This document shows positions 4,901 through 62,632 of a stretch of DNA of 64,000 nt, piece after piece (within the stretch, counting starts at the first letter, position 1; the number at the start of each line of letters is the position of its first letter). Source of the stretch: an uncultured Paracoccaceae bacterium (lineage in GTDB: Bacteria > Pseudomonadota > Alphaproteobacteria > Rhodobacterales > Rhodobacteraceae); the NCBI GenBank assembly GCA_947492585.1, contig CANLND010000003.1:124001-188000 (forward strand). Reading direction: 5' to 3'. Below the pieces are notes generated by a model. The model had not been told where the DNA came from. It did no database searches and saw only the letters and a list, made by a program, of their open reading frames with translations. The position numbers were made by a program, and so were the translations under genes.

Positions 4901-5304
4901 AACAGGCGCAGTTCCTAAAACCCACAGTGATCACGCTGGTGTATGGTCTGGGCTTTGGCATGTTCTTGGTGCTGCTGGTGGTGCCCGCCTTGGTCGCCAT
5001 TCAGGAAGACGTGCGCCGCCCGATGATGGCGCTGCGCCGGTCGGTGCGTGCGGACGGATTGCAGCGTTTGATCTATGTGGCCGCTGCCGCGCAGTCCCTG
5101 TGGTTTGCCGCGACCATGGGCGCGGCAACTGTCACCGGTGCGATGGCACCGCAGATCCTCCAAGCGGTGCCCGCATTGGCGGATCTGCCCGCACTGCGGG
5201 CGGCGTTTATCTGCTTCTTGGGGGGGGCTGCGTTGATTTCGCTACTGGCCTACGGGATTGGCGCGTGGGTCTATTCGGCGCGGTTGCGCAAAAGCCGCGC
5301 CTGA
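1909..5304 (+). CDS. Efflux RND transporter permease subunit (AcrB/HAE1-like)
   Basis: 1131 aa, multiple TM segments, NMVSLFGLIITLGIVVDDAIVVGE motif. Confidence 0.93.
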   Translation: MTRALTHRAGGLLSYFTRHGTAANLLLVLLLGLGLAAMPNMRAQFFPDVIVESVSVNVVWDGAGPEDVDNAIVQPLEPALLAVEGVSESRATSREGRATLWLEFEPGWDMAQAADDVQTAVDAVTSLPETAEDPTVRRAIWRDRVTDVVLTGPVAPEQLGLFADELIARLFQAGVTRTTIRGVAAPETIVEVPSAQLIANDISMSEIAAAISAGVDADPAGDVTGANARVRTGQERRAPDEIEAIVLRVNPDGSALTIGDVALIRVEGVARNRSYFVGPNPAMSIRVDRSNRGDAIRIQGVVEDTVETFQASLPEGVTAGLIRTRAEAISGRLNILLDNGLMGLGLVVLLLFLFLNARIAFWVAAGIPAAMFAAIALMYAAGLTINMVSLFGLIITLGIVVDDAIVVGEHADFRARRLGESPKVAAENAARRMAMPVLAATLTTIIAFFGLTAIGGRFGDLIRDIPLTVIAVLAASLVECFLILPNHMAHALAHAQQGNWYDLPNRVVNRGFLWMRETLFRPLMAVVIRGRYAVIAGAVVLFASQAVLFISGDVKWRFFNAPERGSVTGNFAMVDGASRADTLAMMREMQRATEALAAEYQERYGTNPVDFVIAEVGGNAGRGLAGVDTKDGDLLGGISIELIDADLRPYSSFAFVADLQDSVQRHPLAEVVSFRGWRSGPGGDALDVQFFGASVQDLKRAAEDLKTTLAIFPEVSAVEDDLAYDKEELILDLTPQGQALNFTIDALGRALRNRLGGIEAATYPDGPRSATIRVELSRGELSADFLERTLMRTPDGVYVPLADIVSVTRRNGFSTVQRENGIRLMSVTGDISEDDPARAEEIMQRLQTEILPEIASRRQLEWRMSGLSEQEDTFLTDARNGLILCLAGIYLVLAWIFASWTRPMVVMAIIPFGLVGTIWGHYLWEVPLSMFTVVGLLGMTGIIINDSIVLVSTIDDYAETRGVWPSIIDGAADRLRPVMLTTLTTVLGLAPLLYESSQQAQFLKPTVITLVYGLGFGMFLVLLVVPALVAIQEDVRRPMMALRRSVRADGLQRLIYVAAAAQSLWFAATMGAATVTGAMAPQILQAVPALADLPALRAAFICFLGGAALISLLAYGIGAWVYSARLRKSRA

Positions 5305-47101: not shown

Positions 47102-50053
47102 TCAGATGCTCAGCGCTTCGTTCACGAGCGCAGCTTGTTGGGATTTGTGTTGGCTCGCCAGACCGGTGGCTGGCGATGCAGAGGTGGCACGGCCGATATA
47201 GGTCGGACGGGTGTGTTTGGCGCCGATCCGGGTCAGCACCCATTCGATGTTGGGCTCAATAAAGGTCCAAGCGCCTTGGTTTTTGGGCTCTTCCTGACAC
47301 CAGACAACTTCGGCGCCTTTAAAGCGTTCCATTTCCTTGACCAAAGAGATGGCCGGGAAGGGGTAATACTGTTCGACCCGCATCAGGTAGATGTCGTCGA
47401 TGCCCCGCGCGTCGCGCTCTTCCAAGAGGTCGTAATAGACCTTGCCCGAGCAGAGCACCACGCGCTTGATCTTGTTGTCGGGGACCAGTTGGGTGTCGGA
47501 ATTGCCGTGCTGGGCATCATCCCACAACACCCGGTGAAAGCTGGAGCCTGTGGTGAACTCTTCGGCCTTGGACACCGCCAGTTTGTGGCGCAGCAATGAT
47601 TTTGGTGTCACCATGATCAGTGGCTTACGGAAGGTGCGGTGGATCTGTCGGCGCAGGATGTGGAAGTAGTTCGCAGGCGTTGTACAATTCGCCACGATCC
47701 AGTTGTCCTGGCCACACATTTGCAAGAACCGCTCCAGACGCGCTGAGGAGTGCTCAGGGCCCTGACCTTCGAAACCATGCGGCAGCAGCGTCACCAGACC
47801 GGACATCCGCAGCCATTTGCTCTCGCCAGAGGAAATGAACTGGTCAAACATGATCTGCGCGCCATTGGCAAAGTCGCCAAACTGGGCTTCCCACAGGGTC
47901 AGCGCATTTGGTTCGGCCAGCGAATAGCCGTATTCAAAGCCCAGAACCGCATATTCCGACAGGGCGGAATCGATCACTTCGTATTGTTCCTGACCTGACC
48001 GGATGTTGTTCAGCGGGTAATAGCGCTCTTCGGTGTCCTGATTCACAATGCCGGAATGGCGCTGTGAGAAGGTGCCGCGTGTCGCGTCCTGACCGGACAG
48101 GCGCACCGGGTAGCCTTCGGTCAGAAGGGAGCCAAAGGCCATGGCTTCGCCGGTTGCCCAGTCAAAGTTTTCGCCTGTTTCAAACATCTTGCCGCGGGCT
48201 TGCAGGACGCGATTCACGGTTTTGTGGATCGGATATCCTTCGGGCACGGACGACAGAGAAGCACCAATTTCGGCCAGCGTTTCTGGCGCGATGGCGGTTT
48301 GGCCGCGTTGGTATTCTTCGCCGCGTTTGTCCAGATGTGACCAGCGCCCGTCCAGCCAATCGGCCTTGTTGGGTTTGTAGTCCTTGCCGATCTCGAACTC
48401 TTCGTTCAGGTGCGCCTGAAAGGCGGCCTTCATGTCTTCGATTTCGCCTTCGGGGATCAGCCCATCCTTGACCAGACGTTCGGTGTACAAAGACAGGGTG
48501 GTTTTGTGACCCTTGATCTTTTTGTACATCACCGGGTTGGTGAACATCGGCTCGTCGCCTTCGTTGTGACCAAATCGGCGGTAGCAGAAGATGTCCAGAA
48601 CCACGTCTTTTTGGAACTTTTGACGGAATTCGGTCGCGACCTTTGCGGCGTGTACCACCGCTTCGGGATCGTCACCGTTGACGTGGAAAATTGGCGCTTC
48701 AACCACCAGTGCGTTGTCGGTGGGGTAGGGCGAGGAGCGCGAGAAATGCGGCGCGGTGGTGAAACCGATCTGATTGTTCACCACGATGTGCATGGTGCCG
48801 CCGGTCTTGTGACCACGCAGACCCGACAGGGCAAAACACTCCGCCACAACACCCTGACCGGCAAAAGCGGCGTCGCCGTGCAGCAGGATGGGCAGCACTT
48901 TGGTGCGGCGATCGTCGTTCTTTTGGTCCTGCTTGGCGCGGACTTTGCCCAGTACAACTGGGTTCACCGCCTCCAGGTGGGAGGGGTTGGCCGTCAGTGA
49001 CAGGTGGACGGTGTTGCCGTCAAATTCCCGGTCCGAGGACGCCCCAAGGTGATATTTCACATCGCCAGAACCATCCACGTCTTCGGGTTTGAACGAGCCG
49101 CCCTGGAATTCGTTGAAGATCGCGCGATAGGGTTTGCGCATCACGTTGGCCAGAACTGACAAACGGCCCCGGTGGGGCATGCCGATCACGATGTCTTCGA
49201 CACCCAGATTGCCACCACGTTTGATGATCTGCTCCATCGCAGGGATCAGGCTTTCGCCGCCGTCCAGACCAAAACGTTTGGTGCCCATGTATTTGACATG
49301 CAGGAATTTTTCAAAACCCTCGGCCTCAACCATTTTGTTGAGGATCGCCTTGCGGCCTTCACGGGTGAATTGGATTTCCTTGCCAAACCCTTCGATGCGT
49401 TCTTTTAGCCAGGCCGATTGCTCGGGATCGGAGATGTGCATGTATTGCAAGGCAAAGGTGCCACAATAGGTGCGTTTCACGATCTCAACGATCTGGCGCA
49501 TCGAGGCAACCTGAAGGCCCAGCACATTGTCGATAAAGATCGGACGATCCATATCCGCATCGGTGAAACCATAAGATTTTGGATCCAGCTCAGGGTGCGG
49601 CGTGGCAGCGCGCATGCCCAGCGGGTCCAGTTCGGCGGCCAAGTGGCCCCGGAACCGATACGCCCGGATCAGCATCAGGGCGCGGATCGAATCCAGTACG
49701 GCGCGTTGGATCTGTTCGTCCGACACCGATGCGCCCGTTTTGACGGCCTGCTCCTTGATCTTTTTGCCCGCAGCTTTGGTTTCGACAGGAGCGGGCCATT
49801 CACCGGTCAATGCCGCGGTCAGGTCGTCCTCGGGGGCAGGGGGCCAGTCGGGGCGCGCCCACGAGGGGCCAGCGGCCTCGGCCCTTACGTCGCCTTCCGC
49901 ATCGCCCATCTGGCGAAAAAACTCGGCCCAGGCGGCATCAACCGCATTGGGGTCGCGAGCGTATTGGGCATAAAGCTGTTCAAGATACTCGGCGTTGTGC
50001 CCCTGCATAAAGGAGGAGGCATGGAAGAGATCGTTGGGGCTTTGCTCGGTCAT
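47102..50053 (-). CDS. sucA: 2-oxoglutarate dehydrogenase E1 component
   Basis: 983 aa; GMPHRGRLSVLANVMRKPYRAIFNEFQG; YRRFGHNEGDEPMFTNP. Confidence 0.97.
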   Translation of the reverse strand: MTEQSPNDLFHASSFMQGHNAEYLEQLYAQYARDPNAVDAAWAEFFRQMGDAEGDVRAEAAGPSWARPDWPPAPEDDLTAALTGEWPAPVETKAAGKKIKEQAVKTGASVSDEQIQRAVLDSIRALMLIRAYRFRGHLAAELDPLGMRAATPHPELDPKSYGFTDADMDRPIFIDNVLGLQVASMRQIVEIVKRTYCGTFALQYMHISDPEQSAWLKERIEGFGKEIQFTREGRKAILNKMVEAEGFEKFLHVKYMGTKRFGLDGGESLIPAMEQIIKRGGNLGVEDIVIGMPHRGRLSVLANVMRKPYRAIFNEFQGGSFKPEDVDGSGDVKYHLGASSDREFDGNTVHLSLTANPSHLEAVNPVVLGKVRAKQDQKNDDRRTKVLPILLHGDAAFAGQGVVAECFALSGLRGHKTGGTMHIVVNNQIGFTTAPHFSRSSPYPTDNALVVEAPIFHVNGDDPEAVVHAAKVATEFRQKFQKDVVLDIFCYRRFGHNEGDEPMFTNPVMYKKIKGHKTTLSLYTERLVKDGLIPEGEIEDMKAAFQAHLNEEFEIGKDYKPNKADWLDGRWSHLDKRGEEYQRGQTAIAPETLAEIGASLSSVPEGYPIHKTVNRVLQARGKMFETGENFDWATGEAMAFGSLLTEGYPVRLSGQDATRGTFSQRHSGIVNQDTEERYYPLNNIRSGQEQYEVIDSALSEYAVLGFEYGYSLAEPNALTLWEAQFGDFANGAQIMFDQFISSGESKWLRMSGLVTLLPHGFEGQGPEHSSARLERFLQMCGQDNWIVANCTTPANYFHILRRQIHRTFRKPLIMVTPKSLLRHKLAVSKAEEFTTGSSFHRVLWDDAQHGNSDTQLVPDNKIKRVVLCSGKVYYDLLEERDARGIDDIYLMRVEQYYPFPAISLVKEMERFKGAEVVWCQEEPKNQGAWTFIEPNIEWVLTRIGAKHTRPTYIGRATSASPATGLASQHKSQQAALVNEALSI

Positions 50054-50287: not shown

Positions 50288-51172
50288 TTACTTGTCGATC
50301 GCTTTCAGCACGGCTTCGCCGAGACCAGCAGGGCTGTCGGCGACAACGATACCAGCGGATTTCATCGCTTCGATCTTGTCTTCTGCGCCACCTTTGCCAC
50401 CGGCAACAATCGCACCGGCGTGGCCCATGCGGCGGCCGGGAGGGGCTGTGCGGCCCGCGATGAAACCAGCGGTGGGCTTCCAGCGGCCTTTTTTCTTTTG
50501 CTCGGCCAGGAATTCAGCGGCTTCTTCTTCCGCCGAACCACCGATTTCACCGATCATGATGATCGATTGCGTTTCATCATCGTCCAGAAACATGTCCAAC
50601 ACGTCTATGTGCTCGGTGCCCTTGATCGGATCACCACCGATGCCCACAGCAGTGGACTGGCCCAGACCGATGTCAGAGGTCTGTTTGACCGCTTCATAGG
50701 TCAGGGTGCCGGAGCGCGACACAACACCAACCGAACCACGTTTGTGGATGTGGCCGGGCATGATGCCGATTTTGCACGCATCGGGCGTGATAACGCCGGG
50801 GCAGTTGGGGCCGATCAGGCGCGATTTGCTGTCGATCAGCGCACGCTGAACGCGCATCATGTCCAGCACCGGGATGCCTTCGGTGATGCAGATGATCAGT
50901 TCCATTTCCGCATCAATCGCTTCCAGGATAGAGTCGGCCGCAAAAGGGGGCGGGACATAGATCACGGATGCGTTGGCTTCGGTCACGTGCTTGGCTTCGT
51001 GGACCGAGTTAAAGACCGGCAGGTTCAGGTGGGATTGCCCACCTTTGCCGGGGGTCACGCCGCCGACCATCTTGGTGCCATAGGCGATGGCCTGTTCGGA
51101 GTGGAACGTGCCCTGCGAGCCGGTGAGGCCCTGACAGATCACTTTGGTGTTTTCGTCGATGAGGACTGCCAT
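50288..51172 (-). CDS. sucD: Succinate-CoA ligase alpha subunit
   Basis: [62 protein letters not shown]. Confidence 0.97.
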
Positions 51173-51741: not shown

Positions 51742-52934
51742 TAGCCCTTAACCGCTTTCACGATCTTTTCAGCGCCATCCGACAGGTTGTCGGCTGCGAT
51801 CACGTCAAGACCTGAGGTGTTGATGATCTCTTTGCCAGCTTCCACATTGGTGCCTTCGAGACGGACAACCAGCGGAACCTGCAGGCCCACTTCTTTGACC
51901 GCGGCGACAACGCCTTCGGCGATCACATCACAGCGCATGATGCCACCAAAGATGTTGACCAGAATGCCTTTGACCTGTGGATCAGAGGTGATGATCTTGA
52001 ACGCTTCGGTGACTTTCTCTTTGGTGGCGCCGCCGCCAACATCCAAAAAGTTTGCAGGCTCAGCACCGTAGAGTTTGATGATGTCCATAGTGGCCATCGC
52101 CAGACCCGCACCGTTCACCATGCAGCCGATTTCACCGTCAAGCGCGATGTAATTCAGGTCGTATTTCGAGGCTTCCAGCTCTTTGCTGTCTTCTTCGGTC
52201 ACGTCGCGCAGCTCAGCCACATCAGCGTGGCGGTACATGGCGTTGCCGTCAAAGCTGACTTTGGCGTCCAGAACCTTCAGATCACCGGAGTCGGACACGA
52301 TCAGCGGGTTGATTTCCAGCATCTCCATGTCTTTGTCGTTGAACGCCTTGTACAGCTGGCCCATCAGTTTAACGCACTGTTTGACCTGCGCGCCTTCCAG
52401 ACCCAGCGAGAACGCAATACGGCGGCCGTGGTAGGGCTGGTAGCCTGTCGCGGGATCAACCGAGAAGGACAGGATTTTTTCAGGAGTTGCCTCTGCAACC
52501 TCTTCAATGTCCATGCCACCTTCGGTGGAGCAGACAAACGAGATGCGCGAGGTCTGGCGATCAACCAGCAACGCAAGATACAGTTCGGTTTCGATGCCGG
52601 AACCGGCTTCGATGTAGATGCGGTTGACCTGTTTGCCCACCGGGCCGGTCTGGTGGGTGACAAGCGTGCGACCCAGCATTTTTTTGGCTTCTTCTGCGGC
52701 TTCTTCAACCGATTTGGTCAGGCGCACACCGCCTTTTTCACCGGCGTCGGCCTCTTTGAAGGTGCCCTTGCCGCGACCGCCTGCGTGGATCTGAGCTTTG
52801 ACAACCCAAAGGGGTCCGTCCAGCTCACCTGCGGCGGTTTTGGCATCTTCGGCCTTCAGCACCACACGGCCGTCGGAAACCGGCGCGCCGTAGCTGCGAA
52901 GAAGGGCCTTGGCCTGATATTCGTGGATGTTCAT
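51741..52934 (-). CDS. sucC: Succinate-CoA ligase beta subunit (ADP-forming)
   Basis: [42 protein letters not shown]-type motif ([16 protein letters not shown]). Confidence 0.97.
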
Positions 52935-53046
52935 TTGAAACTGTCCCGTCTGGCTGCAATTGTTCTTTGGTATTACCACTGCATACAGCCAAGGTTTAAA
53001 GGGTTTTTTGACGACCAATGCTTAAATGATGAAAGTTTTTCGGGTT

Positions 53047-53077
53047 TGTGATCACACTTCTGACGCGTGTGATCACA
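53047..53077. promoter_or_regulatory. Tandem TGTGATCACA palindromes upstream of sucC
   Basis: Exact TGTGATCACA at 53047-53056 and 53068-53077, 21-bp periodicity. Confidence 0.7.
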
Positions 53078-53215
53078 TTTTTCAAATTTCTGTAGAAATG
53101 ATTCGTTTTGGCTGAGTAAGTACAAATTAGCAGTGTCGCGGAATGCGCGGTGGACCTGAAAATGATGGCGCTATCATTTTGGTGCGTGCTGTCACATTCA
53201 GGACGCGGTCCAAGC

Positions 53216-53248
53216 GTAAAAAAGGCGCCCTATTGGGGCGCCTTTCAA
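53216..53248 (-). terminator. Terminator of mdh
   Basis: aaaaaaggcgccc-tattg-gggcgcctttc. Confidence 0.85.
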
Positions 53249-53273
53249 AATTTCACTGGTTCTTGGTGAGGCT

Positions 53274-58774: not shown

Positions 58775-58822
58775 GTAGTTGTTTTCCGACAGATTCCGTC
58801 AAGATCGCAGTATTGCGAATTT

Positions 58823-58863
58823 TGTGATCACTAAATTATTGCTGTGATCACGATGTGATAATT
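58823..58863. promoter_or_regulatory. Tandem TGTGATCAC-type palindromes upstream of sdhC
   Basis: TGTGATCACT 58823-58832, TGTGATCACG 58843-58852, half-site TGTGATAATT 58854-58863. Confidence 0.65.
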
Positions 58864-58887
58864 TTAGCGCGAACAATGGCAATACAG

Positions 58888-58933
58888 AGCGATTTTTACC
58901 CGGCGTTAGCGTGACAGCGGGTAAAAATTCGCT
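58888..58933. promoter_or_regulatory. Strong inverted repeat in sdhC leader/promoter
   Basis: agcga-tttttacccg-gcgttagcgtgacag-cgggtaaaaa-ttcgct; 10-bp perfect arms plus flanks. Confidence 0.65.
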
Positions 58934-58967
58934 AAAACGACGATAGCTAATTGGAAAAGGAGCCAAC

Positions 58968-59351
58968 ATGGCCGATGTAAATCGGGGCAATCGCCCACTT
59001 TCGCCACATTTAACCATCTATCGCCCGCAGCTTACCTCGATGTCTTCGATCCTGGTACGGATCACAGGCATTGCGGCCTTTGCGATGGCGTTTTTGGTTG
59101 CTTGGTGGCTTCTTGCCGCTGCGACATCCCCTTCGGCCTTTGGGTTCATCGATGGCCTGCTGCGCAGCTGGTTTGGTGATCTGGTGCTGCTTGGGGCGAC
59201 CTGGGCGATCTACTACCACATGCTGGGGCGCCTGCGTCACGTCATCTGGGATTTTGGCTACTGCCTGGACGTGAAAACGTCTGAGAACATGGCTGTGGGC
59301 ATGTTGATTGCTGCGAGCGGTCTGACAATTGTCACCGCTGTGGCCGTGTAA
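58968..59351 (+). CDS. sdhC: Succinate dehydrogenase cytochrome b556 subunit
   Basis: NRGNRPLSPHLTIYRPQLTSMSSILVRITGIA. Confidence 0.96.
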   Translation: MADVNRGNRPLSPHLTIYRPQLTSMSSILVRITGIAAFAMAFLVAWWLLAAATSPSAFGFIDGLLRSWFGDLVLLGATWAIYYHMLGRLRHVIWDFGYCLDVKTSENMAVGMLIAASGLTIVTAVAV

Positions 59352-59359
59352 GGAGCTGG

Positions 59360-59734
59360 ATGATGCGATATCTTACTGATCGAAAGCGCGCACAGGGTCT
59401 GGGCGCGGCCGGACACGGCACTCACCACCACTGGCAGATGATGGGCAGTTCGGTTGCGCTGGTTGTGCTGGTGCCTCTGTTTGTTCTGACCTTTGGCATC
59501 GGCCTTGGTGGCACACAGGAAGAAGTATTAGCCTATTTCAGCCGTCCGTTCCCTGCGATTGTGACCGGCCTGTCTTTGGTTGTTGGCATTATTCACCTGA
59601 TGCGTGAGCTGCAGGTGGCCATCGAAGACTATGTGCACGGCGTGGCCGAAAAGCTGGCGCTGCTGGCAACCTCGGCTTTTGCCTACACGATGATTGCAAT
59701 GGTTCTTTTTGCCCTTGTCAAAATCGCTCTTTGA
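59360..59734 (+). CDS. sdhD: Succinate dehydrogenase hydrophobic membrane anchor
   Basis: Three TMs; HLMRELQVAIEDYVHG; position between sdhC and sdhA. Confidence 0.94.
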   Translation: MMRYLTDRKRAQGLGAAGHGTHHHWQMMGSSVALVVLVPLFVLTFGIGLGGTQEEVLAYFSRPFPAIVTGLSLVVGIIHLMRELQVAIEDYVHGVAEKLALLATSAFAYTMIAMVLFALVKIAL

Positions 59735-59759
59735 ATATGCGCGTTAAGGAACAAAAACG

Positions 59760-61571
59760 ATGACAACAGCAGCATATGAATATGAAACCCACGACTATGA
59801 TGTCGTGGTGGTGGGCGCTGGCGGCGCGGGTTTGCGCGCCACGCTGGGCATGGCCGAGCAGGGCCTGCGCACCGCCTGTATCTCCAAAGTCTTCCCAACC
59901 CGCTCGCACACGGTTGCAGCGCAGGGTGGCATCGCCGCGTCGCTGGGCAACATGGGCCCCGACAGCTGGAAATGGCACATGTATGACACCGTAAAGGGGT
60001 CAGACTGGTTGGGCGATACCGACGCAATGGAATATCTTGCCCGTGAAGCGCCCAAGGCGGTCTATGAGCTGGAGCACTACGGCGTGCCGTTTTCGCGCAC
60101 CGAAGAAGGCAAGATCTACCAGCGTCCTTTTGGGGGTCACACCACCGAGTTTGGCGAAGGTCCCCCGGTACAGCGGACCTGTGCCGCAGCGGACCGGACG
60201 GGCCACGCGATTCTGCACACGCTGTATGGTCAGTCGCTAAAGAACAACGCGGAATTCTACATTGAATACTTCGCGATTGATCTGATCATGTCTGATGACG
60301 GTCAATGTCAGGGTGTTGTCTGCTGGAAGCTGGACGACGGCACCATGCATGTCTTTAACGCCAAGATGGTGGTTCTGGCCACTGGCGGCTATGGCCGTGC
60401 CTATTTCTCGGCGACCTCGGCCCACACCTGCACTGGCGACGGTGGCGGTATGGTGGCGCGCGCGGGTTTGGCGCTGCAGGATATGGAATTTGTTCAATTC
60501 CACCCCACCGGCATCTACGGGTCGGGCTGCCTGATCACCGAAGGCGCACGCGGCGAAGGCGGCTATCTGACCAACTCCGAAGGCGAACGGTTCATGGAGC
60601 GCTATGCGCCCAACTACAAAGACCTGGCGCCCCGCGATTATGTGTCGCGCTCCATGACTATGGAGATCCGCGAAGGCCGCGGCGTGGGCGAACACGGCGA
60701 TCACATTCACCTGAACCTCAGCCACCTGCCTGCGGATGCGCTGGCGGAACGTCTGCCGGGCATTTCCGAAAGCGCCAAGATTTTTGCCGGTGTTGATGTG
60801 ACCAAAGAGCCGATCCCGGTTCTGCCAACGGTGCACTACAACATGGGGGGTATCCCGACCAACTATTGGGGTGAGGTTCTGAACCCAACTGCGGACAATC
60901 CAACCGGCATCGTGCCCGGTTTGATGGCCGCTGGCGAAGCAGGCTGTGCTTCGGTGCACGGTGCCAACCGTTTGGGTTCGAACTCGTTGATTGACCTTGT
61001 GGTCTTTGGCCGTGCTGCGTCTATCCGCGCAGGGCAAGTGATCGACAAGGAGGCACCAAACCCAACGTTGAACCAGGCGTCGGTCGACAAAGCGTTTGAG
61101 CGTTTTGATACGTTGCGCAACGCCAAAGGTGGCATCCCAACCGCTGATCTGCGTCTGGAAATGCAGCGTACCATGCAGGCGGATGCGGCTGTGTTCCGCA
61201 CGGACAAAACCCTGAAAGAAGGGGTTGATAAGATGACCGCAATCGCGGGCAAGATGGGCGACCTGAAGGTCACCGATCGCTCGTTGGTGTGGAACTCGGA
61301 TCTGATGGAAACGCTGGAGCTGGACAATTTGATGCCCAACGCTCTGGCCACCATCGTGGGTGCCGAAGCGCGCAAAGAATCCCGTGGCGCCCACGCGCAC
61401 GAGGATTACAGCACGCGGGACGACGAAAACTGGCGTGTGCACACAGTGTCGCGGGTTGAGGGCAGTCAGGTTGATCTGTCATTCCGTCCGGTGATCACCG
61501 ATCCGCTGACCACCGAAGGTGAAGGCGGTATCAGCCTTGAGAAAATCGCGCCCAAAGCGAGGACGTTCTGA
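59760..61571 (+). CDS. sdhA: Succinate dehydrogenase flavoprotein subunit
   Basis: [22 protein letters not shown] (FAD-His motif), C-terminal [13 protein letters not shown]. Confidence 0.98.
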
Positions 61572-61849
61572 TGAAAACTACGGTTCAATTTTCCAAAGCG
61601 AAACGCTTGGGTTGTGGCGTAGCCTTGCTTGTCGCAACCGGTCTTTCAGCCTGTGTGACACCCGCGGACAGCGAAGCCCGCGCGGCTGAGTTCCGGGCCT
61701 GTTTGGATCAGGCGCGCATCACCGGCTCTTATTCGACGCAATATGTGTACACCTCCGGTGGGCAGTCAAAGACGGTTATCGCCTCAGAAACTGTAACTCA
61801 GGCCCAGGCGGATTCTGCCAATGCCTGCCTGCTTGAGAAAGGTTACTAA
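61571..61849 (+). CDS. Small lipoprotein encoded between sdhA and sdhB
   Basis: Lipobox LVATGLSACVTP; ATG overlaps sdhA TGA (TGATG). Confidence 0.8.
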   Translation: MKTTVQFSKAKRLGCGVALLVATGLSACVTPADSEARAAEFRACLDQARITGSYSTQYVYTSGGQSKTVIASETVTQAQADSANACLLEKGY

Positions 61850-61852
61850 GTC

Positions 61853-62632
61853 ATGGTTCAACTCACCCTGCCCAAGAATTCCCGGATCACAACCGGGAAA
61901 ACCTGGCCCAAGCCGGACGGCGCAACCAATGTCCGTAAATTCCAGATTTATCGCTGGAACCCGGATGATGGCAAAAATCCTCAGGTCGACACCTATTTTG
62001 TCGACATGGACAAATGCGGTCCGATGATTCTGGATGCGTTGATCAAGATCAAAAATGAGATTGACCCAACGCTGACGTTCCGCCGTTCGTGCCGCGAAGG
62101 CATCTGTGGTTCATGTGCAATGAACGTCGATGGCATCAATACTTTGGCCTGTATTTATGGCCTGGATGAAGTCGACGGCGACGTAAAGATCTACCCGCTG
62201 CCGCACATGCCGGTGGTCAAGGATCTGATCCCGGATCTGACGCATTTCTACGCGCAGCACGCGTCGATCATGCCGTGGCTGGAAACCAAGACCAACCGCC
62301 CCGCCAAAGAGTGGAAGCAGTCCATTGAGGACCGCAAGAAACTGGATGGTCTGTATGAATGTGTGATGTGCGCCAGCTGCTCGACTTCGTGTCCGAGCTA
62401 TTGGTGGAACAGCGATCGCTATCTTGGGCCAGCGGCGTTGCTGCATGCCTATCGCTGGATCATCGACAGCCGTGACGAAGCGACGGGGGAGCGTCTGGAT
62501 GATCTGGAAGATCCGTTCAAACTGTACCGCTGCCACACCATTATGAACTGTGCAAAAACCTGCCCCAAGGGTCTGAACCCAGCCAAGGCGATTGCCAATA
62601 TCAAACAAATGATGGTTGAGCGTCAGCTCTGA
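61853..62632 (+). CDS. sdhB: Succinate dehydrogenase iron-sulfur subunit
   Basis: [52 protein letters not shown]. Confidence 0.98.

Follow-up and report, generated by a model that had tools for sequence, protein, structure and literature searches.

Which protein reads the two short palindromes that stand in tandem before sdhC in an uncultured Paracoccaceae bacterium, and does it also read the matching pair before sucC? We examined this question in a stretch of 64,000 nucleotides (assembly GCA_947492585.1, contig CANLND010000003.1, positions 124,001 to 188,000; hereafter the window), for which a sequence-only reading had proposed a dedicated regulator of the tricarboxylic acid (TCA) cycle acting on both operons. 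Comparison with relatives bears this proposal out, since the pair tracks a GntR-family regulator from genome to genome, and points to the sdhC pair as being, very probably, the part of the sdhCDAB promoter to which an activator binds, namely a GntR-FCD regulator of the AkgR type. The sites in question are:

58823 to 58832, unstranded: putative AkgR-type operator 1 of sdhC, distal, TGTGATCACT; exact palindrome with an aligned copy in relatives
58843 to 58852, unstranded: putative AkgR-type operator 2 of sdhC, proximal, TGTGATCACG; spacing 21 bp in most relatives
58854 to 58863, plus strand: TGTGATAATT, the "half-site" of the sequence-only reading; not conserved
53047 to 53056, unstranded: putative AkgR-type operator of sucC, proximal, TGTGATCACA; exact match
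53068 to 53077, unstranded: putative AkgR-type operator of sucC, distal, TGTGATCACA; exact match, with 21-bp spacing to the proximal operator

The operator pairs in the window

A position check placed the tandem palindromes, 20 bp apart, and the adjoining half-site sequence at 58823-58863, just where they had been described. With the sdhC start codon at 58968, both palindromes lie 116-145 bp upstream; the range of 105-145 bp given earlier takes in the half-site. The sucC pair (minus strand, ATG at 52934), which belongs to the same gene cluster, lies at the nearly equal distance of 113-143 bp, as had been claimed. Operator type and position are thus common to the two operons; the helical spacing, which was also said to be shared, is not identical (20 bp at sdhC vs 21 bp at sucC).

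The palindrome had not been noticed elsewhere in the window, and exact TGTGATCAC does occur at four places only, two at sdhC and two at sucC. Counted by strand there are six matches (0.55 expected), a number reached by 0 of 100 dinucleotide shuffles, and the tandem pattern occurs twice (0.00 expected), with no shuffle yielding it. The 8-bp core GTGATCAC has two further copies, one inside sdhA at 61491 and one at 4927 that was judged coding from its context only; none was found upstream of mdh. Both sdhC operators have aligned copies in relatives. The same does not hold for TGTGATAATT, which had been counted as part of the cluster: TGTGAT/ATCACA was seen at that position in 0 of 33 other promoters compared, and we rejected it as a third half-site; it is probably not a functional part. 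Rfam gave no RNA element, its single match being at chance level (E 0.087).

The regulator gene and genome-wide sites

The genome-wide motif scan that had been suggested as a check found the tandem form at sucC and sdhC only. Exact TGTGATCACA has eight sites in the whole genome (each palindrome counted once): the sucC pair accounts for two, three seem to be coding, judged by where they fall in reading frames (contigs C8, C22 and C25), those on C10 and C37 are apparently intergenic, and one more lies on C1. The C10 site (L005:1501-1510; G000:C10:113300) stands alone, 22 bp before an open reading frame of 111 aa with an apparent signal peptide, which may be another target in this genome.

Outside the window, on contig C22, TGTGATCACT (a TGTGATCAC site) recurs 17 bp before the ATG of a regulator gene (G000:C22:2451-3101) encoding a 217-aa protein with GntR and FCD domains. 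GntR regulators commonly have an operator at their own gene, which ties regulator to motif. Here there is a single site, at a very short distance from the start codon. We compared 80 loci from named genomes, all of the Roseobacter clade (Rhodobacter sphaeroides RSP_0981 is not among them), and GTGATCAC lies just upstream of the regulator gene in all 80; in 59 of them TTGAC precedes GTGATCAC by exactly 18 bp. In a wider family sample the operator was present at 39 of 49 close orthologues (the 50th row, a 38-39% identical relative in genome G054, was left out of the 49).

Conservation and joint loss in relatives

The sequence-only reading would have been undermined had the motif been absent from the sdhC promoters of close relatives; instead, almost every relative with the regulator gene has the pair at both sdhC and sucC, mostly 104-207 bp before the start codon. 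Spacing is 21 bp in nearly all of them, the 20 bp seen at our sdhC being a minority form with few other examples. We sampled 101 genomes of the family, each from a different genus: 90 have the tandem pattern and none has a reversed control pattern. Of these genomes, 89 encode a close orthologue of the C22 protein (E < 1e-50), and 88 of the 89 have the exact pair; the pair is missing from 10 of the 12 genomes without an orthologue. In a tree of SucC, few of whose inner branches are strongly supported, the genomes lacking both (G004, G008, G014, G017, G021, G029, G048, G054, G059 and G084) are spread over at least four branches, and no GTGATCAC was found in the sdhC promoters of regulator-less genomes (L181-L185, L191, L193, L196, L197).

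Beyond the family, the tandem pattern occurs in 5 of 284 other alphaproteobacterial genomes, and no close orthologue of the regulator was seen among those 284. One such locus from another family (L261; G227:C189:992-1020) has a GTGATCAC pair some 170 bp ahead of a different GntR gene (C189:1190-1669), and the motif seems, from its distribution, to be common to a wider group of GntR-FCD regulators.

Identity of the regulator

We take RSP_0981 of R. sphaeroides to be AkgR, and AkgR is said to activate TCA genes directly (Imam et al. 2015, in mBio). That AkgR study is cited by PMC11323563. The core GTGATCAC has been reported as a binding-site motif of AkgR, a GntR-family protein of R. sphaeroides (PMC6365646), and RSP_0981 (GntR) has been predicted to control sucCD (RSP_0967-6), sdh (RSP_0974-6) and the 2-oxoglutarate dehydrogenase genes (RSP_0965-62) (PMC4344238). 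The regulator is therefore not new, its motif and targets matching those published for AkgR (PMC6365646, PMC4344238). A literature search with TGTGATCAC itself returned only primer-like matches in unrelated papers; searching by name and by the core motif led to AkgR. Three expected parts of an AkgR regulon are at hand: the GTGATCAC palindrome in the sdhC and sucC promoters, the sdh, sucCD and 2-oxoglutarate dehydrogenase genes in the window, and a GntR regulator that is encoded in the genome and co-occurs with the sites (88/89 genomes vs 2/12). In many genera 5-23 kb separate the regulator gene from the pair, which is consistent with the RSP_0962-0981 locus numbering in R. sphaeroides. Motif, targets and gene neighborhood together suggest that the C22 regulator is the orthologue of RSP_0981.

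Several observations weigh against this assignment. The argument for orthology to RSP_0981 is an indirect one, and in this genome the regulator gene sits on a different contig from sdh and suc. The operator is missing or was not found at 10 of the 49 close orthologues, genome G040 has the orthologue and only one-mismatch versions of the pairs, and G019 and G097 (91% and 77% complete, respectively) have the pair with no orthologue found. Finally, the Fisher P for co-occurrence of pair and orthologue (4e-11) is too small, and so overstates the strength of the association, because the genomes compared are related; the spread of the joint absences over separate branches is the better argument.

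Genes and a candidate sdhC promoter

58968 to 59351, plus strand: sdhC, first gene of sdhCDAB (58968-62632); TIGR02970, 110 bits
51741 to 52934, minus strand: sucC, followed by sucD (50288-51172) and sucA (47102-50053); NF001913, PRK05678, PRK09404
58911 to 58916, plus strand: putative -35 of sdhC, GTGACA; a GTGAC[A/T] block recurring in relatives
58933 to 58938, plus strand: putative -10 of sdhC, TAAAAC; 16-bp spacer, same place in several relatives

NCBIfam models identify sucC, sucD, sucA and mdh on the minus strand and sdhC, sdhA and sdhB on the plus strand. In 10 of 15 sdhC promoters compared, GTGAC[A/T] begins 65-68 bp downstream of the start of the proximal GTGATCAC, and several of the relatives have TAAAAC 16 bp beyond that block; from this recurrence we infer that GTGACA-16-TAAAAC is the -35/-10 of sdhC, with transcription starting at about 58945. 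A sigma-70 consensus scan did not report this promoter. The putative -35 is surrounded by an inverted repeat (ATTTTTACCCG...CGGGTAAAAAT, 58892-58928); at that position two relatives have arms that differ in sequence and are likewise self-complementary (L174, CGCTTTTT; L177, TGGTTTTTGC), and the others have none. The repeat may have arisen by chance because its flanks are rich in T and A, or it may be another regulatory element.

Other candidate readers of the sites

The strongest claim for a different protein can be made for another GntR-FCD paralogue, such as the 38% identical G000:C6:148137-148739, since the motif is shared by GntR relatives elsewhere (PS417_07240, 32% identical to AkgR) and the G227 pair stands just before a different GntR gene. 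Yet the pair tracks the close orthologue across the 101 genomes, and G054, which has kept a 38-39% relative and lacks the close orthologue, has neither the pair nor a GTGATCAC before that relative's gene; we regard a paralogue as a highly improbable reader. Ownership by a regulator of the CRP/FNR type comes to mind because the TGTGA/TCACA halves look like CRP half-sites. A CRP site, however, requires TGTGA-N6-TCACA, and neither this spacing nor the TTGAT-N4-ATCAA of FNR is found, the halves abutting without a spacer as TGTGATCACA; moreover, presence of the pair follows the GntR gene. This reading was rejected on both counts and has next to no chance of being right. Hardly any more can be said for CceR, a LacI-family protein, as the shared TCA regulator here: sdh is also under its control in R. 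sphaeroides, but GTGATCAC differs from its motif, and the pattern predicted for RSP_1663, [AGT]GTT-N6-8-AAC[ACT], has no match in either upstream region (58775-58968 and 52935-53273), for which reason it too was rejected.

A separate issue is the sign of regulation. Repressors are numerous among GntR proteins, and at its own promoter the regulator has a site in a repressor position, so the pairs could be loop or roadblock operators that repress sdhC and sucC. They lie, however, upstream of the putative -35, the usual position for an activator, and AkgR has been described as an activator in R. sphaeroides; repression by the pair is thus very unlikely.

A model of the circuit

Under activation by an AkgR-type regulator, two AkgR dimers would sit next to each other on the two GTGATCAC palindromes, separated by about two turns of the helix, with the operators ~98 and ~118 bp upstream of the putative transcription start, and bound AkgR would stimulate the GTGACA-16-TAAAAC promoter. 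The same arrangement upstream of sucC would drive sucCD-sucA, and with both pairs read by AkgR, succinate dehydrogenase, succinyl-CoA synthetase and 2-oxoglutarate dehydrogenase would rise together. At akgR itself, a single operator on the core promoter probably lets AkgR limit its own synthesis, so that activation at sdhC and sucC would be combined with autorepression at the regulator gene. The sites, their conservation, the co-occurrence with the regulator and the own-gene site come from the present analysis, and the motif identity and activator role from the R. sphaeroides literature; the two-dimer geometry, the promoter position and the autorepression are the parts of the model that we infer. 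More tentatively, and with the odds somewhat against it, this may be a fixed three-promoter circuit of the Rhodobacteraceae, in which two phased dimers bound far upstream activate sdh and suc, one operator on the core promoter of the regulator gene provides negative feedback, and the whole has been lost jointly several times.

The most likely reader of the sites is thus settled as an AkgR-type regulator, and at the level of sequence the AkgR circuit now reaches some 90 genera of a marine family of ecological importance. The joint losses offer natural comparisons for how succinate and 2-oxoglutarate oxidation are set and, if the three-promoter circuit is true, would open up the question of TCA-cycle control in genomes that have neither the regulator nor its sites.

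Comparison with known systems

The sites are a regulatory element already known in kind. To this our comparison adds how widely they are conserved, that they have been lost together with the regulator, that their spacing is fixed and that the regulator gene has an operator at its promoter too, details that may already be contained in Imam et al. 2015. The AkgR regulon of R. sphaeroides resembles the present one in the GTGATCAC motif, the GntR regulator and the sdh and suc/2-oxoglutarate dehydrogenase targets, as well as in the nearness of the regulator gene to sdh and suc that is seen in many genera, and differs in that this genome has the gene on another contig. The GntR protein PS417_07240 of Pseudomonas simiae is like AkgR (32% identical) in having a GTGATCAC palindrome before its own gene, but it controls deoxyribonate catabolism (the deoxyribonate cluster) and not the TCA cycle (PMC6365646). 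CceR (RSP_1663) shares with AkgR the regulation of sdh and central carbon genes in R. sphaeroides, but belongs to the LacI family and has a different motif, absent from the sdhC and sucC promoters.
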